From: Candidatus Obscuribacter phosphatis
GTDB taxonomy: Bacteria; Cyanobacteriota; Vampirovibrionia; Obscuribacterales; Obscuribacteraceae
Direction of reading: 5' to 3'
Length of the DNA: 64,000 bases
NCBI GenBank assembly: GCA_001899315.1
Contig: MOYA01000001.1
Location: forward strand, 2,434,529 to 2,498,528
Position numbers and translations under genes: made by a program. Below, in pieces: positions 10,111 to 32,905 of the stretch; position 1 is the stretch's first letter, and every line of letters begins with the position of its first letter. The notes below the pieces were generated by a model that ran no database searches, was not told where the DNA came from, and saw only the letters and a program-made list of their open reading frames with translations.

Positions 10111-11136
10111 ATGAATGACGGTCATCTTGCAAAGCAGTTAAACTATGCTGGTCGGACTAACCACGGTAAAGTCATGTATTTAACGAAAAATAGTTTCTAT
10201 GCCGCCCTAGCCTTAACGGCTCTGGCAACCTCCTCAACCAAACCGGCACTAGCCCAAGCTGAAGACCTATTTTTACTGCAAGACTCAAAACCAATGGTGA
10301 CTAGAGCAGGCGCCTGGCATACCTGGAACCATCATCTCAATCTCAAACCTGGTCAAGAAAAAGCCAAGCTCTTGCTCAGATTGACAAATGGCGCGGAAGG
10401 ACGTCCCAAGGCAAGCGACATCAAGGTCAGTCTGGCCGGTAAGCCCTATGCGAGCATTAAAGACTTTGACGGTAACGGCATCTGGGAAAGTAACTTAACT
10501 GGCAAGGTGGCAGCAGGCAATACACTCATCACCGTGCAAGCTTTTGGTCCTTCCGGTGCATGGGTCAATATGAAAGTGCATATCGAACGCCCTGTGATTG
10601 CATCAGTACAGCCCCAGCCTTTAGGTGTCGGCGAAGATATAACTATAGCAGGCAACAGTTTTGGCGAAGCCAAGGAGGCAGTGCGCGTCAATCTAGGAGG
10701 AAAGCAATTCAAACCTCTAAACGTCGCAAGCAAGCAAATTCAGTTTAAGTTGCCTAGCAAAATTGCTTCCGGAAGCCAGTCTCTGACAGTTTCAGTAAAT
10801 GCTGTTACCAGCGCCCCGTTCAATGTACAAGTCCGCGCCACTCCCAAGATCACCAATATCGACATGCTGTCGTCCCCACCGCAGCATCCAGTAATCTTGA
10901 GCGGCAGCGGTTTTTCAGCTAATGCTGCCGAGAACGAAGTAAAATTTGGCGATTACAAAGCTCAAATAGTCAGCGCCAGTCCATCGAGCATCACCTGTCT
11001 GGTGCCCGACATGCCTTTTCCTAAATGGCATGTGCCAATCAAAGTGAGCACCCACGGGCTTACTTCCACAGAGAAAATCTTCTTCAATGTCGACATGCGC
11101 ATCATACCCAACGAAGGCATACCGATTCCGAATTAA
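10111..11136 (+). CDS. Exported IPT/TIG-domain protein
   Basis: Up to 341 residues. ATG at 10174 (MYLTKNSFYAALALTAL) gives a normal signal peptide ending near PALAQA, so the first 21 codons may not be translated. After the signal come a beta-rich domain (GAWHTWNHHLNLKPGQEKA) and two immunoglobulin-like IPT/TIG units. The units are marked by VIASVQPQPLGVGEDITIAG near residue 165 and PKITNIDMLSSPPQHPVILS near residue 245. Such domains occur in cell-surface and carbohydrate-binding proteins. The next gene begins 3 bp after its stop, which suggests cotranscription with membrane proteins. The specific role is unknown. Confidence 0.72.
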   Translation: MNDGHLAKQLNYAGRTNHGKVMYLTKNSFYAALALTALATSSTKPALAQAEDLFLLQDSKPMVTRAGAWHTWNHHLNLKPGQEKAKLLLRLTNGAEGRPKASDIKVSLAGKPYASIKDFDGNGIWESNLTGKVAAGNTLITVQAFGPSGAWVNMKVHIERPVIASVQPQPLGVGEDITIAGNSFGEAKEAVRVNLGGKQFKPLNVASKQIQFKLPSKIASGSQSLTVSVNAVTSAPFNVQVRATPKITNIDMLSSPPQHPVILSGSGFSANAAENEVKFGDYKAQIVSASPSSITCLVPDMPFPKWHVPIKVSTHGLTSTEKIFFNVDMRIIPNEGIPIPN

Positions 11137-11139
11137 GCC

Positions 11140-11724
11140 TTGCACTTCAAGAGAAAGATAATAGTTCAAATAGCAGTCACGCTTGCCTCTTACGTAGGCT
11201 TTTGCGTGTATAAGCTATGCGGTCCGATTTCCGGACACCTACAGCTGCAAGTTGCTGATCTGCCCAAGCTTTTCCAATTGACTGCTTTAAGCCTGCTCAA
11301 CGGCATAGCCTATATCTACCTTCTCTTCCGTTCCCCCAACCTATTTCTAGTCACGCCAGCATTCATTTCAGCAATTATCTGCGCCTGGCACTACAGACCA
11401 AGAAAGCCTAGCAAAAGACACATACTTCTTTTATCTCCTCTTCTAGGCGCATTTCCTATAGCCGGCTGGGGGGCTTATGTTTCGATAGCTAGACAAAATT
11501 ATGAACTTTCATATTTAGGACTGAAACCCTGGGTCTCTACTATTCTTGCCTCTCTCTTTCAAGCAGCATTTATTCCTATTGCCACCATATTGGTCTTTCA
11601 TCTAATAGACAAAGAGACCAGGAGCGAAATACTCTTTGCCTTTTCGATACTAACTCTGATTGGCTGTCTGATTTACCTTCAATATTTAGCAGCAACGATG
11701 CCGACAGCCAATAGCTGGCTTTAG
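11140..11724 (+). CDS. Integral membrane protein of unknown function
   Basis: 194 residues with about five hydrophobic helices, including IIVQIAVTLASYVGFCVYKL, LFLVTPAFISAIICAW, HILLLSPLLGAFPIAGWGAY and LFQAAFIPIATILVFHLI. The TTG start lies 3 bp after the stop of the IPT/TIG gene with no strong ribosome site, so translation may be coupled. It ends with a short polar tail and Trp-Leu, as does the next gene. No family is recognised. It resembles the proteins at 3628 and 11770 in size and layout. Confidence 0.6.
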   Translation: MHFKRKIIVQIAVTLASYVGFCVYKLCGPISGHLQLQVADLPKLFQLTALSLLNGIAYIYLLFRSPNLFLVTPAFISAIICAWHYRPRKPSKRHILLLSPLLGAFPIAGWGAYVSIARQNYELSYLGLKPWVSTILASLFQAAFIPIATILVFHLIDKETRSEILFAFSILTLIGCLIYLQYLAATMPTANSWL

Positions 11725-11769
11725 TTGCAACAACAGGCTCTATACCAAACCACACAGTTTATTAAGTGA

Positions 11770-12486
11770 TTGCTGCATAAATTCAGCTCCGGCTTCTCAC
11801 ACGAGAATAGGTCAAGCAAAGCACCAGCGAGAGCCGCCATGAAATCAAGTTATTTTAAAAGAACAGGTTATTTTAAAAGACCAGCTTATTTTACAGCTTG
11901 CCTTAAAAACTTTGACTATTCCACTTTGTGCCTGAATCTTTTTAGAGCACTGCTGGCAGTAAATTTAGTTTGCTGTGCGCACGGAATCTACAAGGTTCTT
12001 CCCCAGACCTGGAACCTAAAGCGCGAGCCCCTTGTCTGGGGTTTGGACTCATGTAGAGTATTGCTTGACGGCGTGCTCGCTAGCTCCATCTCAATTTTCT
12101 CACCGGTGATGCTACCTATCGTGGTAGTTGCCATAGTAGCTCTCGTACTTACTCATCGAAAACTCGGTATCGTCGACCTCTGCAACTTGTCTAAGGCACT
12201 TGCACCCACATTAAGCTTGCCATTTTGGGCAACCTATGTGACATCGCACCGGGACCAAGATAATTCCAATCACTTTAGCTACAGTAATGAATGGTATACA
12301 AAGGTACTAGAACTACTGGCTCAGTTCTCTGAGATAGTACTTTTTCTTACAGCGCTCTACATACTTCTATCACCAAGATGGAAAGGAAAACGCTCGCCGG
12401 CTATTGCTGTGCTTGTCCTATTCCTTTGTCTTCAGATAGGTATAAGTCTCATAAGTTTCATGATGACCACAAATTTCTGGCTTTAA
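11770..12486 (+). CDS. Integral membrane protein of unknown function
   Basis: Up to 238 residues from TTG at 11770. ATG at 11839 is a plausible alternative and would remove a polar leader of 23 residues. The N-terminal part contains an 18-bp duplication encoding SYFKR/GYFKR. Four or five hydrophobic segments follow, for example IVVVAIVALVLT and ALYILLSPRW, and the C-terminus is TTNFWL. A loop between the third and fourth segments is polar and His/Asn-rich. No family is recognised; it is probably a diverged paralogue of the preceding membrane protein. Confidence 0.55.
   Translation: MLHKFSSGFSHENRSSKAPARAAMKSSYFKRTGYFKRPAYFTACLKNFDYSTLCLNLFRALLAVNLVCCAHGIYKVLPQTWNLKREPLVWGLDSCRVLLDGVLASSISIFSPVMLPIVVVAIVALVLTHRKLGIVDLCNLSKALAPTLSLPFWATYVTSHRDQDNSNHFSYSNEWYTKVLELLAQFSEIVLFLTALYILLSPRWKGKRSPAIAVLVLFLCLQIGISLISFMMTTNFWL
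11848..11895 (+). repeat. 18-bp tandem duplication
   Basis: Two full units of AGTTATTTTAAAAGAACA and a third partial one, in frame within the membrane-protein gene. They encode a repeated (S/G/A)YF(K)R motif. Confidence 0.85.
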
Positions 12487-25185: not shown

Positions 25186-27045
25186 CTAGTTTGCAGTTCC
25201 CAGCATCTGCTCATGCCAGAGGCATAGCTCTCTCATTTCAGTTTCAGGAGCAAAACCAACTTTCTGCATAAGGCTGAAAAAAGCCGGGCTGGCTTCTCTC
25301 AACAGGATGGGAGGTGTTATTTCTTTGTGAAAGTCGGCATTGAGTTGCCAGAGGCGGCGAGAGAATTGCAGTTCCTCTCCTATGGGCACTGAGGCTCTGT
25401 GAGAAGGCGAGGTATATGGCAAGCAATAAGGACTGCGGCAGTAGCTTCCGTCGGGAAGACTTAGAACCAGACCGCCTTCTCTACTTCCAGCCAGAAAGTC
25501 TCGACTATCTAGTATGTCTAATATGGAAGCGCCGCTCTGTCGAGCTCTAATTGTCAGGGCGCAGACTGCTCTTATCTTGACTGGCAAAGGCAACAATTCT
25601 TGTACTTGCAAAACAGTGGCACCAGAAAAGATATCATCATCAAAAAGAATATAGTCACCGCCCGGTATCTTATCCAGCTGTAAATCAATGGCTTCGGCAC
25701 CTGGGCGGGCCACCAAAAATGGTGCAGCTCCGCCATCAGACAATGGAAAGGCGCGTGAGATTTTCAGATCAATGGTACCTGGAATGCAAGGGTCAAGACT
25801 AATTACTTTCTGCCCTCTAGCAAGAGTCTTTACCGCCTCAAGCTGTTCCTTCAGCGCTAGCAAATCCACCTGCACCAGTCTTTCTTCATCCGGTTTCTTC
25901 GCAAAGCGATGGACGCAAGCGAAGAGTTCTTGCAGGTCTGTCAGAAATCTCTCTCCGGCTTCCCTCACACCCTGATGTGTTTTTTGCCAGGCACCTGTCG
26001 CCCATTCCAGTTCCTGCCGCAAATATATAATTGCCCTTTTCGGACTTGGTTCATCAATTTTTGATATCGAAAAACTCTTATCCCCAATAAGCCTGTCTTT
26101 CCAGAGCCAGAAACTGGCTGTGGTGCCTTGTATCTGCTCAGCAGAATCACTGCATCGCAACATCTGAGAAGAAATATTGCGGCTTGACTCTTCTACAAAA
26201 AGAATCTCCTCTCTTTCTATGCTCGCACTTAAAAGCGGACTCTGTCGATAACGCCAGAAGGCTTCTTCGCAACCGGGGCGAGCCACGCAAACAGCACTGC
26301 CTGATTGGCTGAAGGCGAGAGAAAAGCGGGCATTGTCTGAACCAAAGACATAGGCTACCTCCAGCCAGTCATCAGGGTCTACAAAATCAGGTAAAAGACT
26401 GCGGGGAATATTTCTCAGTAAATACTGCTTTAGGCGCGATATAACATCGGTGAAGTTGACCATACGATCGGTAGCCAGAGCTTCCCAGGAGCATTCCATC
26501 AACCAGGGACTTCCCTTCACGGCTTCTTGCACCAGATGAAGGCGATGACAGGCTCTCAAAGCCTCCTCCCGACACTTGGGCATGACATAGCTATCATGGG
26601 ACGGCGATAAATAACCTGCAATTACAATTTTTCCAGCAGCTTTCAGTGCCCGGGCAGCGATTTCCATCATCTCTATATGCCCATGGTGTACCGGACAAAA
26701 GGCCCCCGTAGAAAGAAGCACAAATAGACGACGGTCAGAAGAACTTGGGCATATATCTTGAGCGAGACTAAGGTCTTGTAGGTTTGTAGCAAGTTTGTGC
26801 AGCGGTGTGCAAAGCCAATTGAGGCGGAAATAGTCTGCTGAATTCAACTCCGCCGCTGTGGCACCGTCATTGAAGAAGCCAGCTTCAAATAGATTACGGG
26901 CCGTATCTTCTGCCCTTTCACCGGTTAATTGGGGCAGGACGAGACTGTAATAGGGGTCCAGACTGGCTCTGGCGATCATTCTGGAGGCTTGTTCAGGGTC
27001 CTCGAAATTATTCAACTGGTGAAATGCATCAATTGTCATAGCCAT
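25186..27045 (-). CDS. NMN adenylyltransferase fused to a phosphoribosyltransferase-like domain
   Basis: 619 residues from ATG at 27045; the frame is open to 27114. After about 105 unassigned residues comes a nucleotidyltransferase domain: GAFCPVHHGH at 114-123, GYLSPSHDSY near 145 as in eukaryote-type NMNATs, FGSDNARFS near 235 and the ISSxxxR end motif at 291-297. A helical linker leads to a type I PRTase-like loop, YILFDDDIFSGATVL near 465, which binds PRPP in that family. Thus one chain may form a mononucleotide and adenylylate it to a dinucleotide; this is inference. The start overlaps the stop of the NAD synthetase fusion gene by 17 bp, so translation is coupled. Confidence 0.78.
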   Translation of the reverse strand: MAMTIDAFHQLNNFEDPEQASRMIARASLDPYYSLVLPQLTGERAEDTARNLFEAGFFNDGATAAELNSADYFRLNWLCTPLHKLATNLQDLSLAQDICPSSSDRRLFVLLSTGAFCPVHHGHIEMMEIAARALKAAGKIVIAGYLSPSHDSYVMPKCREEALRACHRLHLVQEAVKGSPWLMECSWEALATDRMVNFTDVISRLKQYLLRNIPRSLLPDFVDPDDWLEVAYVFGSDNARFSLAFSQSGSAVCVARPGCEEAFWRYRQSPLLSASIEREEILFVEESSRNISSQMLRCSDSAEQIQGTTASFWLWKDRLIGDKSFSISKIDEPSPKRAIIYLRQELEWATGAWQKTHQGVREAGERFLTDLQELFACVHRFAKKPDEERLVQVDLLALKEQLEAVKTLARGQKVISLDPCIPGTIDLKISRAFPLSDGGAAPFLVARPGAEAIDLQLDKIPGGDYILFDDDIFSGATVLQVQELLPLPVKIRAVCALTIRARQSGASILDILDSRDFLAGSREGGLVLSLPDGSYCRSPYCLPYTSPSHRASVPIGEELQFSRRLWQLNADFHKEITPPILLREASPAFFSLMQKVGFAPETEMRELCLWHEQMLGTAN

Positions 27046-28855
27046 TTCTTTCAGGCATACCCAGAGGTTTAGAGATGCCCGGCGAGCGCTTTCTTGGCAA
27101 ACCGCAGCGTTCAAAAACCACGTCGGTCCTCATAATTATTTTCTTTCCCTCTTTTCCTTTCAGCGCTTGCGAATCGTGCAGTACTCGGTGGTCTATTAAA
27201 AGAGCTTCTCCGGCGCCGAGAGAAAGTGCGGCAATAACTTCATCATCCCGAGCAAGCCTTGTCCAGTCTTCATAGACACGCTGCTTTAAGGGCAGTTCAA
27301 TTTGTGGGTCTTTTATAAGTCTAGTGGCGCCACCATGGGTAGCGTCGGAGTCGGTAAGATAAAGGACTAGACTCATCATGGTGCGTTTGCCTTCATGGTA
27401 ATCAAAAGGTGCATCATAATGCGGTACCAAGAGCCCACCTTCTACATACTTTATAAAGCGCATAAGAGGATTTACCGCCACCGCCCGCCAAATAGGGTAA
27501 TCGTCCCAGTCTGCCGGGGTATTTTCTTGCATAATTCGCAGTCGCGGGAAATCAGGGCAGAGACAAAGGCGTCGAAAAACTATATTGGATAGGTCTTCAT
27601 TGAAAATAGATGCACGGTAAGAGCCGATTGGGTCAATGTCGGGGCGATAGTCTTTCAACATGCCGTTCAAGCCGACAGGCACCCATTCGAGCTTATCAAG
27701 CAAGGATACAAAACTCCTGCATTCTTCCGCCCTAAGCAATCCCGAAATAACGAAGGCCGAGTCCTCAAAACTGCTTACCGGCTTTCTCTGCGGCACTATA
27801 TTGGGCTTTAGAGATTCATCTAGTTGGTCAATTATTGGCTGCGGCAAGACAAAAACATTGACAAATTTACCTGCAGCCATACCACCCTTGAGCTCATCCT
27901 CGGTGAATTCTCGGCGCCAACCGCCCGGCACAGGTCTTTCCATAACATCTAGATGCACTGCCGTCGACCCGGCAACATATTTGTGATAGTTCTGCCGGTT
28001 TAGCTTATCAAGACGAGCTGAATATTCGTCATATTCGACCCTGGCATTGCCCCGAAGAGAATCTTTCAGGTGCCTCTTTAGTCTATCGTCTCGCAACGAA
28101 AGAAGGAGCGAGTAAAATTCTATAAAATCATAGGGCACACCGATGAGTTCTTCATCTGTTCTACCGTCGTAGATATCGCCTGTAGGGGTCGCTTCTATCA
28201 CCGACTGAGGCAAATGCAAATACTCAGCCAGCCGGCTAACCTCACTTTTGTGCAGGTCTGAAATCAATTGCAGGTCAACCATGGCGTCGGCGGCCTTGCC
28301 GAAATAGCCTATATAGCCGCCTTCATCCCTGTTTGTTGTTCCCAGCAAAATAGCCGGTTTATCTTGCATAGTGAGCAAGCTGGTCAGGTAAAAGAGTGCC
28401 GGAGTGCGTAGATATGATACTAACTGACCGGCGGCCCAGTCATCGCCCTTCTCTCCAAAAGCCCCGTCCAAGGCAGATTTCATTGCTTGAAAGCTGGCAC
28501 TGAGATCCACCTTAATGAGGTCAACAAGATTGCTATCACAGCCTCTTCTTACAGACTCAACCACAACCTCACCGCGGTCCATTGCCACCTGCTGGTTGCT
28601 TGTACCTTCTTCAATAAGATATGGAAGAAGAGCTGCAGTAATCTTCTCAATAGGAGAGTCAGGTAGTTTCGCCGCTCTGACTGCAATAGCCAGTGTAAGA
28701 GCGGAATCGATACCGCCACTGATGCCAACAACCACTGCCTTCAATCCCGAGTTTCTCAAATAACCATTGAGAAGCAGGCATTTTGCTTGCAGGTATGGCT
28801 CTTCACGAAAGCCTCTCAGTCGCCGCAAATAAGCCAGAGCTTCTTTGATCTGCAA
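27029..28855 (-). CDS. NAD synthetase fused to a 2-oxoglutarate/Fe(II) oxygenase
   Basis: 608 residues from TTG at 28855, which has GGAGAG 7-8 bases upstream; the frame is open to 28891. Residues 1 to about 290 are an NH3-dependent NadE domain with the pyrophosphatase loop VGISGGIDSALTL near 45, GTTNRDEGGYIGYFGKAAD near 185 and TPTGDIYDGRTDEE. No glutaminase domain is present. The C-terminal half has a prolyl-4-hydroxylase-like double-stranded beta helix. Iron ligands are H and D of PHYDAP near 478 and the distal His in LHDSQAL near 560, followed by the 2-oxoglutarate Arg in IMRTDV. This fusion is not one I know. It is coupled to the NMNAT-PRTase gene. Confidence 0.82.
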   Translation of the reverse strand: MQIKEALAYLRRLRGFREEPYLQAKCLLLNGYLRNSGLKAVVVGISGGIDSALTLAIAVRAAKLPDSPIEKITAALLPYLIEEGTSNQQVAMDRGEVVVESVRRGCDSNLVDLIKVDLSASFQAMKSALDGAFGEKGDDWAAGQLVSYLRTPALFYLTSLLTMQDKPAILLGTTNRDEGGYIGYFGKAADAMVDLQLISDLHKSEVSRLAEYLHLPQSVIEATPTGDIYDGRTDEELIGVPYDFIEFYSLLLSLRDDRLKRHLKDSLRGNARVEYDEYSARLDKLNRQNYHKYVAGSTAVHLDVMERPVPGGWRREFTEDELKGGMAAGKFVNVFVLPQPIIDQLDESLKPNIVPQRKPVSSFEDSAFVISGLLRAEECRSFVSLLDKLEWVPVGLNGMLKDYRPDIDPIGSYRASIFNEDLSNIVFRRLCLCPDFPRLRIMQENTPADWDDYPIWRAVAVNPLMRFIKYVEGGLLVPHYDAPFDYHEGKRTMMSLVLYLTDSDATHGGATRLIKDPQIELPLKQRVYEDWTRLARDDEVIAALSLGAGEALLIDHRVLHDSQALKGKEGKKIIMRTDVVFERCGLPRKRSPGISKPLGMPERNGYDN

Positions 28856-28938
28856 AGGTCTACTCTCCGTTCTACTCAGGACAAAAGACAATCAGGCAAT
28901 AGTGAATCACAGAGAGCACACCAACATAAGTTCAGACT

Positions 28939-29526
28939 TTACCTATTCAACCTCTGAGCATAGGCATAAATCGCCAAGATACTGAGCGCATCGGTTATCT
29001 CGCCGCTTGCCACCATCTCTAGTGCCTGCCCAAACGGCACTTTACGCAAAGCGAGGTCTTCTGTACCTTCCGGTTCTGCCTCACCCTCGGTCAAACCAGT
29101 GGCAAGATAGTAAGTAGCTTCTTCATCAGATACCGAATTAGACAAATAAGACCGGCCAAGCACCTCATAATTAGAAGCTGTCAGACCAGTTTCTTCTTTC
29201 AATTCACGCACCGCTGCAGAGAGCGGGTCTTCACCCTGGGGGCAGCCGCCCTCAGGTATTTCCCAACTATACAAATCAAGCGGATATCTATATTGCCCAA
29301 CCAGATAAGTATTGCCTTCCTCATCTATTGGCAAGACACCAATAGCTTTGTTTTTATAACTAACAGTGGTATAGGTGCCGGGCTTACCATCGGGGCGAAT
29401 CACATCGTCCTCTTGAACCCTTATCCAAGCATTGTCATAAATTTCTTTCTTCTTGAGTGTTCTCCAAGGACTCTTGACTGGGCTTGATATAAAGCTCGGC
29501 AATGGGCTTGACATATTCTTCGTCAT
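28939..29526 (-). CDS. Nudix hydrolase, ADP-ribose pyrophosphatase type
   Basis: 195 residues. The Nudix box is complete (GGCPQGEDPLSAAVRELKEE, then TGL) near residues 100-122, and the preceding LVGQYRYPLDLYSWEIPEG matches ADP-ribose pyrophosphatases (NudF/YqiK-like). These hydrolyse ADP-ribose to AMP and ribose 5-phosphate in the cytosol. The start ATG has AGGGAGC about 6 bases upstream and lies 10 bp after the permease stop. Its place before two NAD-biosynthetic fusion genes suggests a role in recycling a NAD-derived product. Substrate choice within the Nudix family is an inference. Confidence 0.87.
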   Translation of the reverse strand: MTKNMSSPLPSFISSPVKSPWRTLKKKEIYDNAWIRVQEDDVIRPDGKPGTYTTVSYKNKAIGVLPIDEEGNTYLVGQYRYPLDLYSWEIPEGGCPQGEDPLSAAVRELKEETGLTASNYEVLGRSYLSNSVSDEEATYYLATGLTEGEAEPEGTEDLALRKVPFGQALEMVASGEITDALSILAIYAYAQRLNR

Positions 29527-29536
29527 CTAAGGCTCC

Positions 29537-30925
29537 CTAAGACTCAATTCTAACTAGGTCTTGGTCTGACAGTTCCACACCAGACTGACTAAGAGTATAC
29601 GCTCTCAATTCTAAAAATCTGAGCGGCAAATAGACAAAGGCGGCAGCCAACCAAGCCTGCAAGCTGGGAATGCCGAACTTGAGGCTAAAGCCAAACAGGG
29701 GTAAGGCTCCCGATGTCAGAACACCAACTGCTATACCGCAAATGAGAGCGGTTAAGGCGGCCGGATGATAGACCTTTGTGCTCGCACTTTTCATATGAGC
29801 ATCGCGATTGACGGCAAAGACGCCTTTGCCTGTTCGGCGCGAAAGCCACCATTCGCAAAGCATCACCACAGTGGCGGTCGGCAAAATCACACAGTTGAGC
29901 GAAACAATCGCCTCAAGTGATCGAGCCGCCCCCGATATCGATAGTACGGCCGCTGTAACTGTACCCAAACCAGCTAAAATAGCCACCCAAACTCTCAGGC
30001 TCAGTTTCTTAAGTTGAATGCAAGCCTGCACCGAACCAAACAAATTAGAATCGTTGACGGCAAAATATGACACAGTAAGCACCAGCACGGCTAGCGCCGT
30101 AAAACCCCCAAAGCTATAGTCATTCATAAAGGCGGTCGCTGCACCATATTCGGTGATGCCGGTGCTGTATGCCACCATATAACCGGTTATTGGGAAAATA
30201 AACTGACCAATCAAGAGTGAAATAATCAAGGGCCAAGCGCAGGTAGAAATCTTGCTTTTGCCAAAGCGCCAATAATCACATTCATTACCCCAAACAGCAA
30301 AGCCTATGACAAAACCCGAAATTCCAGTCAAAGAAGCCGCCAACGAACATTTCTCGCCGACTTGCCAGATAGAGACAGGGCAACTGCCGAGGGTCTTAAA
30401 GAATGTATAGCCCACCCATAATATAAGCAGCGGTGCCGCCACAAAGCGAGCAAAATTAGCCACACCTTTGAAGCCAAAGAAATTATTGGCAGCCATGAGA
30501 ACGGCACAAATAGCCGAAAGCCACATCATTGGCAGCTTCAGCGAAATCAAGCCAGCCAAGCCTTCAGCCAGAAAGAGGGCAGCCAGTCCATAAAAGGCAA
30601 TGAAAATAAGCACCAGATTGAGAGCCACAAATTTGGCACCGCCCGAGCCGAAGACCAAGCGACTGAGCATGGTGTAGCTCAGTCCAGTATGGGCACCAAG
30701 CAGACCGGCGGGTATGCTGTAAGCCAGCAAAAGCAGCCCGCTAAAGACAGTAGAAATAATCACCTGGCGCAGACTATAACCTTGCTTAAACCATTCAAAA
30801 CCGATGAGCACACCGGGAAAAACGGTCACCATTGTGATCCAGAGAAGGGCCATGGTGAAGCTACTGCGCCTTGCCTCTAAGGGCACGGGGCCATCTAGAT
30901 AATCGTTTTCTGAAGCCAAATGCAC
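29537..30925 (-). CDS. NCS1-family permease
   Basis: 462 residues with about 12 membrane helices. Hallmarks of the nucleobase-cation symporter-1 family are LLGAHTGLSYTMLSRLVFG near residue 72, a helix with FGFKGVANFARFVAAPLL, and VWGNECDYWRFGK near residue 215. Members import cytosine, purines, hydantoins, thiamine or pyridoxine. Here the gene order (permease, Nudix, NadE fusion, NMNAT-PRTase fusion) suggests uptake of a base or pyridine precursor for dinucleotide synthesis; this is inference. The GTG at 30925 or TTG at 30919 starts the gene, and GGAGAAGG before it is buried in an inverted repeat. Hcp lies upstream. Confidence 0.88.
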   Translation of the reverse strand: MHLASENDYLDGPVPLEARRSSFTMALLWITMVTVFPGVLIGFEWFKQGYSLRQVIISTVFSGLLLLAYSIPAGLLGAHTGLSYTMLSRLVFGSGGAKFVALNLVLIFIAFYGLAALFLAEGLAGLISLKLPMMWLSAICAVLMAANNFFGFKGVANFARFVAAPLLILWVGYTFFKTLGSCPVSIWQVGEKCSLAASLTGISGFVIGFAVWGNECDYWRFGKSKISTCAWPLIISLLIGQFIFPITGYMVAYSTGITEYGAATAFMNDYSFGGFTALAVLVLTVSYFAVNDSNLFGSVQACIQLKKLSLRVWVAILAGLGTVTAAVLSISGAARSLEAIVSLNCVILPTATVVMLCEWWLSRRTGKGVFAVNRDAHMKSASTKVYHPAALTALICGIAVGVLTSGALPLFGFSLKFGIPSLQAWLAAAFVYLPLRFLELRAYTLSQSGVELSDQDLVRIES

Positions 30926-30973
30926 CTTCTCCGACTAGCTTTCAAACATGATAGCCAGTCTAAAGAAGGTGCA
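30921..30973 (-). promoter_or_regulatory. Hairpin covering the ribosome site of the NCS1 permease
   Basis: On the minus strand TGCACCTTCT (30973-30964) is complementary to AGAAGGTGCA (30930-30921). A further GACT/AGTC pairing lies inside, around a loop of roughly 18-20 bases. The 3' arm contains the GGAGAAGG ribosome site and the GTG start. Folding would mask initiation, so it may be a translational switch between hcp and the NAD-related genes. It lacks a T run, so it is not an obvious terminator. Confidence 0.5.
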
Positions 30974-31000
30974 AAAGGGTGAAACTACGCAGCCTTAAGA

Positions 31001-32659
31001 TTAGGACTTGCCTAAAATGGCAGCCAAGTCGGCTTCGGGCTTACCGGTCGGCTTAAGGTCATAGCCTTCTACAAGTACTTTCAGCACATTGGGTGTGACA
31101 AAGGCGGGAAGATTGGGTCCCAGTCTAATGTCTTTAATGCCCAAATGCAGCAAGGTCAGTAGAACAGCTACAGCTTTCTGCTCGAACCAAGAAATAATCA
31201 GAGATAGAGGCAAATCGTTGACGCCGCATTCAAAGGCTTCGGCAAGTGCTACAGCTATCTTCACAGCCGAATAAGCATCATTGCACTGCCCTATATCGAG
31301 CAAACGAGGTATACCGCCGATATCGCCGAATTCTTCCATATTGAAGCGATACTTACCGCAGCCGAGAGTCATGACCACACAGTCTTGGGGTACTTGCTCG
31401 GCTACTTCGCTGAAATAATTGCGAGCAAACTCAGCCCCGTCACAACCGCCAATCAGGAAGAAATGCTTGATTTGACCAGCTTTTACAGCATCGATAACCT
31501 TGTCGGCTACAGACAAAACTGCATTGCGACCAAAGCCAATCATAATCTCTTTGGCAACAGCATCTTCGCTAAAGCCAGGCGCCGCCAGGGCTGCTTCGAT
31601 TACAGGGGTAAAGTCATAGTCTTGAATCTTTCTTACACCTTCAAAGCCCACCACGTCCATGGTGAAGAGTCTGTCTTTGTAGGCATCAGCCGGCGGCTTG
31701 AGACAATTGGTCGTCATCAGCACAGAGCCTGGAAATTCGCTAAACTCTCGTACTTGATTTTGCCAGGCACCGCCATAATTGCCGACCAGATGAGGATATT
31801 TCTTCATTAGCGGATAGGCAAGCGCCGGCAGTAGTTCGCCGTGGGTGTAGACATTAACACCTTTGCCGGCAGACTGCTTCAGAAGCTCATGCAGAGAATT
31901 GAGGTCGTGTCCGCTTACGGCAATGCACTTTCCTTTTAGCGGAGTGGTGCGCACCTTGGTTGGCTCGGGATGACCAAAAGTTTCGGTATGGGCGCGATCA
32001 AGCAATTCCATCACCAGCAAATTGCATTCACCGGTGCGCAAAGCCAAAGCTAAAAGCTCGCCGAGATTCTGCTCAGCTTGGCAAATATAGTCGAAAGCTT
32101 CATAAATAAAGGCGGCGATGCGAGCATCTGTATAGCCCAATAACAAGGCATGATGAGCGTAGGCAGCCAGACCTTTGACTCCATAAGTGATTAGTTCTTG
32201 CATGCCGACAAGGTCTCTACGGGCTTCATCACCGGCAGCGGCAATCTTAGACATAATGCTTAGGGTCTCGGCAAAAGCCAAGGTCGAAAGCTTATCTTTG
32301 GGCATTGAAAAAACGGCAGGGCCGGTAAGCACTTCGGCTTCGGCATAAACAGAAAGATAAAGCTGCCTGGCTTTTTCTAAAGTAAGGCTTAGTTCTTTGA
32401 TGTACTCAATGTGTTCGTCTGTATCAAAGTTGACATTTGTCAAAGTCATAAAAAGGGCTTCCAGAACCCGCGCATCGATGGCCGCATCAATGGCTCCTTT
32501 TAAACGGGCGCGATGGCAATAGATGGAAATACCCTTACATATATAGACAATTAGATCTTGCAGAGCAGCCGTCTCAGGACCTTTTCCGCAGACACCCATG
32601 GTGTTGCAGCCGGTACCTTGGGAGGTCTGCTCGCATTGATAACAAAACATGCTGGTCAT
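31001..32659 (-). CDS. hcp: Hybrid cluster protein, class I
   Basis: 552 residues from ATG at 32659, with AAAGGAG 9 bases upstream; the open frame extends to 32788 but that leader has no ribosome site. The N-terminal cluster motif is Cx2Cx8Cx5C (CYQCEQTSQGTGCNTMGVC), the pattern of class I proteins from anaerobes. Later signatures include SGHDLNSLHELLKQ, NGEL-type YTHGELLPALAYP, FLIGGCDGAE, TLGCGKYRFN and PLSLIISWFEQKA. Hcp holds a [4Fe-4S] cluster and a hybrid Fe-S-O cluster and reduces NO or hydroxylamine during low-oxygen nitrosative stress. No separate Hcr reductase gene is adjacent. The permease gene begins 75 bp downstream. Confidence 0.96.
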   Translation of the reverse strand: MTSMFCYQCEQTSQGTGCNTMGVCGKGPETAALQDLIVYICKGISIYCHRARLKGAIDAAIDARVLEALFMTLTNVNFDTDEHIEYIKELSLTLEKARQLYLSVYAEAEVLTGPAVFSMPKDKLSTLAFAETLSIMSKIAAAGDEARRDLVGMQELITYGVKGLAAYAHHALLLGYTDARIAAFIYEAFDYICQAEQNLGELLALALRTGECNLLVMELLDRAHTETFGHPEPTKVRTTPLKGKCIAVSGHDLNSLHELLKQSAGKGVNVYTHGELLPALAYPLMKKYPHLVGNYGGAWQNQVREFSEFPGSVLMTTNCLKPPADAYKDRLFTMDVVGFEGVRKIQDYDFTPVIEAALAAPGFSEDAVAKEIMIGFGRNAVLSVADKVIDAVKAGQIKHFFLIGGCDGAEFARNYFSEVAEQVPQDCVVMTLGCGKYRFNMEEFGDIGGIPRLLDIGQCNDAYSAVKIAVALAEAFECGVNDLPLSLIISWFEQKAVAVLLTLLHLGIKDIRLGPNLPAFVTPNVLKVLVEGYDLKPTGKPEADLAAILGKS

Positions 32660-32905
32660 GATGCCTGACTCCTTTGACTTGTGTGGCTTAGGCTTCAAAA
32701 GCATGACATTTGCACCGACTGGAAACGTCGGCAAAAGGGATGAACAGCAAGGATGATTCGAGACTAACCACAGCGCCAAGATTGACACTATTACGGCGCC
32801 TTAAAAATAGGACTCTTTTATCCTGAAATACTTCTTTCGGATACTTGGCAAATCAACCAAGAGAAATCTAGATTGCGGACTTACTCAAGGTTATTTTGGT
32901 TAAGG

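Follow-up and report, generated by a model that had tools for sequence, protein, structure and literature searches.

Why does one bacterial gene join an NAD synthetase-like domain to an oxygenase? The window, a 64,000-nucleotide stretch of Candidatus Obscuribacter phosphatis (contig MOYA01000001.1, positions 2,434,529 to 2,498,528), encodes a fusion of a NadE-like amidotransferase with a 2-oxoglutarate (2OG)-Fe(II) oxygenase, and next to it a second gene, here called gene A, which combines a nicotinamide mononucleotide (NMN) adenylyltransferase (NMNAT)-like domain with a phosphoribosyltransferase (PRTase)-like domain. We consider it an even call whether these enzymes belong to a mobile biosynthetic module whose product is an NAD-type nucleotide that is amidated, oxidised and different from NAD itself, the amidation and oxidation steps being fused in this genome. 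The two genes are as follows.

27029..28855, minus strand: fusion gene, NadE-like amidotransferase plus 2OG-Fe(II) oxygenase (domain profiles; alternative start at 28891)
25186..27045, minus strand: gene A, N-terminal helical part, eukaryote-type NMNAT and PRTase-like domain (the open reading frame (ORF) may start at TTG 27114)

The fusion occupies a single uninterrupted frame of 620 codons (27029-28891, minus strand). Its candidate starts are TTG 28891 and TTG 28855; the latter, chosen in the initial annotation, is preceded by a GGAG-like site. Within its family the fusion occurs in 4 of 50 genomes, one of them the window's, and it is conserved in the relatives G002 (95% identity), G008 (53%) and G071; it is therefore not a sequencing join. 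Its presence in four chromosomes, the existence of separate-gene homologues and purifying selection together exclude a sequencing or assembly error or a chance join. Between the window and G002, the ratio of nonsynonymous to synonymous substitution rates (dN/dS) is 0.17 and 0.23 for the two fusion halves and 0.21 for gene A, and all three are under purifying selection in this comparison. Gene A adjoins the fusion in all four chromosomes (in G071 it runs off the contig), and its ATG, at 27045 or 27039, lies inside the end of the fusion gene, an overlap of 17 or 11 nt.

Homologues were sought in a Cyanobacteriota sample, in plasmids, in phages and in IMG/VR, with one narrow scan of genome contigs. 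Within the 386-genome Cyanobacteriota sample, the window's own genome alone yielded gene A, and the other 385 gave none. Searched by tblastn, 72,556 plasmid records gave 10 with gene A, three of which match the NMNAT half only, while seven cover the PRTase half (four from Variovorax with near-identical scores, and one each from Streptomyces, Leptospira and Paenibacillus). On the four plasmid records examined (Variovorax, Streptomyces, Leptospira, Paenibacillus), nadE is followed by the oxygenase gene and then by gene A, all adjacent apart from one small intervening ORF in Paenibacillus. The other three Variovorax records, judged from search matches, show the 2OG match directly beside the gene A match. 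Phages X1 and V45v66 carry contiguous gene A, oxygenase and NadE genes, and phage ME3 has, within about 3.5 kb, nadE, the oxygenase gene and, of gene A, just the PRTase-like half (212 amino acids (aa)). IMG/VR contains 11 records with gene A, nine being contigs of 110-465 kb; all three genes are present in seven of the 11, gene A plus the oxygenase in two, and gene A alone in two (one a 9-kb fragment). A scan of the viral_contigs set with query A1 gave no match. The oxygenase and the divergent NadE-like protein of the fusion also exist as separate genes beside gene A.

The three proteins vary in step with one another. Their distance matrices over 16 records give Mantel correlations of 0.912 (NadE-2OG), 0.935 (NadE-gene A) and 0.879 (2OG-gene A), each reached by 0 of 5000 permutations. 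Because the matrices correlate, the NadE-like protein, the oxygenase and gene A are taken to be co-inherited as one module. No description of the trio was found in open-licence papers, and this gene set of large bacterial viruses, plasmids and a few chromosomes is apparently undescribed.

Some candidate members were set aside. The NMNAT-like genes of Gordonia and Mycolicibacterium plasmids match the NMNAT half only and are followed by a phosphotransferase gene (one of two Gordonia records examined), and were rejected. In their own right, these genes (L050:5755-7499, L051:5749-7532) represent another NAD-like pair on mobilizable plasmids. Oxygenases on Nostoc plasmids are weak matches (25-27%), with no nadE annotated nearby in the one of two records examined. 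A 668-aa frame on the G453 virus contig resembled a second fusion; the ORF listing gives two separate ORFs, and no fusion is claimed there. A protein of about 210 aa is encoded after gene A in the Paenibacillus plasmid and, at a distance of a few kb from it, also in several large virus contigs (L047:8686-9309; L042:8596-9276; L043:9786-10451). It has no Pfam assignment over the cut-off and is a possible fourth component.

The oxygenase half of the fusion contains the following features.

27104..27775, minus strand: 2OG-Fe(II) oxygenase domain, about aa 373-596 (profiles, alignment)
27413..27421, minus strand: iron ligands H491-Y-D493 (17/17)
27176..27190, minus strand: distal histidines H568 and H572, one of which is the third iron ligand (both 17/17)
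27128..27130, minus strand: R588, with K/R584 the candidate 2OG carboxylate binder (R 17/17, K/R 17/17)

The initial annotation had described an intact facial triad followed by an arginine, and the alignment bears this out: all 17 aligned oxygenases have H491-x-D493, H572 (81 residues beyond H491), R588, the second distal histidine and a K/R twelve residues past H572. With the metal and co-substrate residues kept in 17 of 17, a decayed oxygenase was rejected, and iron binding and 2OG turnover are predicted. The matches of the window protein fall below the Pfam cut-offs (PF13640, 21.6 bits against 27; PF05721, 20.2 against 22), and stand-alone homologues from Variovorax and Streptomyces exceed the PF13640 cut-off of 27 with 32.8 and 33.8 bits. 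The domain shares the HxD...H triad and the downstream Arg/Lys with PhyH and prolyl-4-hydroxylase-like oxygenases (PF13640, PF05721), but differs from them in having two invariant distal histidines, an invariant DW motif and a NadE-like partner.

The NadE-like half contains the following features.

27887..28792, minus strand: NadE-like domain, about aa 34-335 of the 620-aa frame (Pfam/NCBIfam profiles, alignment, subfamily signature)
28703..28720, minus strand: ATP-pyrophosphatase P-loop SGGIDS, aa 58-63 (SGGxDS in 17/17 module members)

This half matches Pfam NAD_synthase (PF02540) over aa 34-261 with 96.5 bits (cut-off 21) and TIGR00552 nadE with 92.7 bits (cut-off 63.65). The NCBIfam NAD+ synthase equivalogs are not reached (PRK13980, 98.6 against 255 bits; PRK00768, 64.1 against 250). 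All 17 module members keep SGGxDS, T-N-E, the Lys and D..G. The loop leading to the conserved Asp contains FGK or YGK in 16 of the 17, and a C-terminal NxHKY likewise occurs in 16, ME3 being the exception in each case. Neither feature is seen in the 11 ordinary or cyanophage NadE sequences of the comparison set, which leaves out 11 of the 17 ordinary NadE rows planned from relatives. Ammonia-dependent NadE (PDB 3fiu, 2e18) is alike in the SGGxDS PP-loop, TNxE, the Lys and the catalytic layout, with profile matches to E 1.5e-37. Compared with it, the module proteins have a GK in the loop that leads to the conserved Asp, the NxHKY C-terminus and a C-terminal extension, and bacterial module members carry GQ where ENxxxR has EN. 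The earlier description of this half as a complete NadE thus holds for the catalytic motifs, every one of which is there, but not for its identity with ordinary NadE, from which it departs at several positions and in profile scores. We regard it as a divergent NadE subfamily. NadE-like genes of cyanophages were rejected as module members, since they sit in sugar or glycan clusters and are without the signature. Those of cyanophages Bellamy and P-TIM68 (L084, L083), within glycan/sugar-modification clusters, perhaps amidate something besides nicotinic acid adenine dinucleotide (NaAD).

Gene A contains the following features.

26140..26745, minus strand: NMNAT-like domain, aa 124-325 of the TTG-start ORF (profiles, structure match, alignment)
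25195..25818, minus strand: type-I PRTase-like domain, aa 433-640, with FDDDIFSGAT resembling the loop that binds phosphoribosyl pyrophosphate (PRPP) (motif and weak profile matches)

An AlphaFold model of gene A built from 12 sequences has a pLDDT of 78.3. Its best structural match is the Arabidopsis nicotinate mononucleotide (NaMN) adenylyltransferase 9rpk (Z 19.8, 2.4 Å, 204 aligned residues), followed by other eukaryotic NMNATs; all of the matches listed are NMNATs, most over residues 102-319. The HxGH motif is His-Gly-His in 15 of 16 sequences, being lost in Paenibacillus, and the Trp of DxWE is kept in 14 of 16. In the PRPP loop, which most members have, one Asp and the Gly are conserved in each of the 15 rows that extend this far, G071 being truncated. 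Eukaryotic NMN/NaMN adenylyltransferases (Arabidopsis 9rpk, human NMNAT1 and 3) are alike in fold, HxGH-type motif, SSxxxR and DxWE. The module domain differs from them in its fusion to a PRTase-like domain and in a shorter loop: it is about 11 residues shorter than NMNAT3 where NMNAT3 bears the second of the Trp residues that flank NMN (PMC12606303). Together, the differences of the NadE-like and NMNAT-like domains near the pyridine site may mark an altered base pocket.

From the domains, residues, linkage, co-inheritance and selection described above, we infer a possible order of steps, substrate, product and use. The PRTase-like domain of gene A would join a carboxylated aromatic base to PRPP, giving a mononucleotide, which the NMNAT-like domain would adenylylate, or host NadD where that domain is missing or broken. 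The NadE-like domain would then adenylate the carboxylate and amidate it with ammonia, in keeping with NadE chemistry (PMC3376133). The oxygenase would hydroxylate or oxidise the base or ribose, before or after amidation. In Obscuribacterales, the last two enzymes would act as one fused protein whose gene overlaps gene A. The resulting NAD variant might serve in virus-host conflict over NAD. A hydroxylase acting on the dinucleotide product, as first proposed for this gene, fits an oxygenase inherited as one module with a NadE-like amidase and an NMNAT/PRTase-like protein. That large viruses, plasmids and a few bacteria make a chemically altered NAD in this way, taking a base to an amidated, oxidised dinucleotide with three genes (two in Obscuribacterales), we propose tentatively and regard as rather doubtful.

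Several observations weigh against the proposed pathway. The Arg of SSxxxR in gene A is replaced by L in G008 and by K in G071, in an alignment where six further rows are gapped and one is misaligned at this site; a separate 12-row alignment shows S and R in 12 of 12. The PRTase half gives only weak PDB profile matches, to adenine/hypoxanthine PRTases (E 0.0018-0.005), two better-ranked matches being designed repeat proteins without a significant stretch that were discarded as spurious, and its hhalign comparison with two other PRTases is also weak. Its assignment as a PRTase, drawn mostly from the loop motif and these profile matches, is accordingly a weak one. The nicotinate and nicotinamide PRTases known to us belong to a different fold class. 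The NMNAT half is absent in ME3 and HxGH is lost in Paenibacillus, and therefore a dedicated adenylyl transfer is not essential everywhere. Co-inheritance by itself gives no order of steps, and the activities and product of the module are predictions from sequence.

An alternative that we consider unlikely is one in which the product is an amide-bearing, oxidised nucleotide that does not resemble NAD, for example a signal or antimetabolite as proposed for Ter operons, with the NadE-like enzyme amidating another carboxylate and the NMNAT-like domain acting as a general adenylyltransferase. It is raised by G071, where Ter-type nucleoside genes directly adjoin the fusion on contig C63 (L052:3668-8848): ATPgrasp_Ter (117 bits), C-C_Bond_Lyase, StiP-PELOTA, PRTase_2-TRSP and an ORF without a Pfam match. 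PRTase_2 is also found in G002, G008 and phage ME3, whereas the window's own genome (G000) lacks it and the other seven of 12 genomes or records searched give no match over the cut-off. The alternative is also favoured by NadE and NMNAT pockets unlike the ordinary ones and by the missing or broken NMNAT part of two members. However, the NMNAT domain is nearest to true NMNATs rather than to other nucleotidyltransferases, and on Leptospira plasmid p1 an NrtR regulator (L046:5485-6186; PF21906, 96.8 bits, cut-off 27) lies directly upstream of nadE, which points to NAD metabolism and counts in favour of an NAD-type product. NrtR is a repressor of NAD synthesis genes, and ADP-ribose frees it from DNA (PMC6800001).

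That the trio simply resupplies NAD in the face of host NADases, its oxygenase supporting or regulating the process, is a quite improbable explanation. It would suit the carriers of the trio, large viruses and plasmids, among which NAD reconstitution has precedents (NARP1, PMC12774641; PMC9503650), the TIR-domain gene about 1.6 kb from the Leptospira operon, slightly downstream of it together with a gene annotated for abortive infection (within 10973-12445), and the genes for NAD-dependent DNA ligase that two virus contigs carry no more than about 4 kb from the trio. Yet the oxygenase equals the other two proteins in conservation and in fidelity of inheritance and is mostly a separate enzyme, and two of the carriers have other NAD-pathway genes. 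Phage X1 has NMNAT-Nudix and NAMPT genes 2-5 kb from the trio, and contig C5 of the window's host (L029) encodes PncB-like and PRPP-synthetase-like proteins, a glutamine-dependent NadE with a nicotinamidase-like part (968 aa) and NadD together, PncB and nicotinamidase being names that we propose from their sequences. Because the host has its own NAD pathway, the module would be redundant there for plain NAD, as in X1; the fusion as the host's only NadE was rejected for the second, 968-aa NadE. The fusion is not a housekeeping NadE with an added oxygen sensor. The regulatory idea of the initial annotation, an NAD output responsive to oxygen, iron or 2-oxoglutarate, finds no support in view of this separate host NadE and of an oxygenase that keeps all its catalytic residues and is usually a free-standing enzyme instead of a regulatory domain.

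Least probable, and very unlikely in our view, is an oxygenase acting on protein, nucleic acid or another substrate unrelated to the NadE product, the fusion being mere operon compaction. The weak PDB matches of the oxygenase are indeed prolyl 4-hydroxylases (E 0.00017-0.0057), but these mirror the general fold, and the oxygenase nearly always accompanies the same two nucleotide enzymes. An amidated, oxidised NAD-type product remains our preferred reading of the module.

Further observations concern the surroundings of these genes. The host NAD locus on C5 also contains a T4-type RNA ligase gene, and its PRPP-synthetase-like and NAPRT-like pair is perhaps comparable with NARP1. The host genome has nine NadD-type matches on several contigs, unusually many, two of them within one 652-aa frame on C3. 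In G008, a 433-aa protein with two tandem nucleotidyltransferase domains (L027:6360-7661) adjoins gene A. Two genes lie upstream of the fusion in the window.

28939..29526, minus strand: NUDIX hydrolase, 10 nt after the permease gene (of the relatives seen, only G002 keeps it next to the module)
29537..30925, minus strand: NCS1-type nucleobase permease, a possible base importer (kept only in G002)

Both are absent beside the module in G008 and G071 and are therefore not counted as core. Over 25186-32788, the synonymous distance to G002 is 0.45 for a hydroxylamine-reductase gene, 0.26 for the permease and 0.10-0.14 for the module and the NUDIX gene, a stepwise drop that suggests recent transfer or recombination of the module. 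Against PADLOC component profiles, the window proteins yield just two matches, a generic 2OG one (22.8 bits) and a short one for the NUDIX protein (21.3 bits), and no anti-phage system.

NAD is the battleground of many anti-phage systems. If the preferred reading is true, a co-inherited, NAD-pathway-like gene set that includes an oxygenase and occurs in unrelated hosts as well as on large virus contigs would represent a new means of altering the NAD pool, possibly yielding a new natural NAD analogue. Such an altered cofactor could resist host NADases, feed NAD-using enzymes of the virus or jam NAD-based immunity. The fused gene offers a handle, since a single purified protein should carry both amidation and oxidation, with a product traceable by mass.

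The trio is grouped here with mobile NAD-pathway gene sets, because its parts have known folds and its product is deduced from them. Two surveys covering NAD systems and jumbo phages (PMC9503650, PMC7824862) and the NARP1 paper (PMC12774641) describe NAMPT, NadM, NadR, Adps and Namat. Phage NAD reconstitution by NARP1 (Adps plus Namat) or by NAMPT with NadM/NadR likewise places NAD-pathway enzymes on large phages. In contrast, the type-I PRTase-like domain, eukaryote-type NMNAT, NadE-like protein and oxygenase of the module are not among the enzymes of those systems in the available portions of these papers, and the words 'oxygenase' and 'NadE' do not occur in the main text of PMC9503650. Conversely, domain scans of the trio show neither NARP1 component, Adps (PRPP-synthetase-like) or Namat (NAMPT-like). 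The Ter-associated nucleoside pathway (ATPgrasp_Ter, C-C_Bond_Lyase, PRTase_2-TRSP, StiP) is also centred on a PRTase and adjoins the fusion in G071, the only genome where its genes do so. It differs in that no NadE, NMNAT or 2OG oxygenase is among the Ter genes seen in G071, and the PRTase_2 profile misses gene A in G000.

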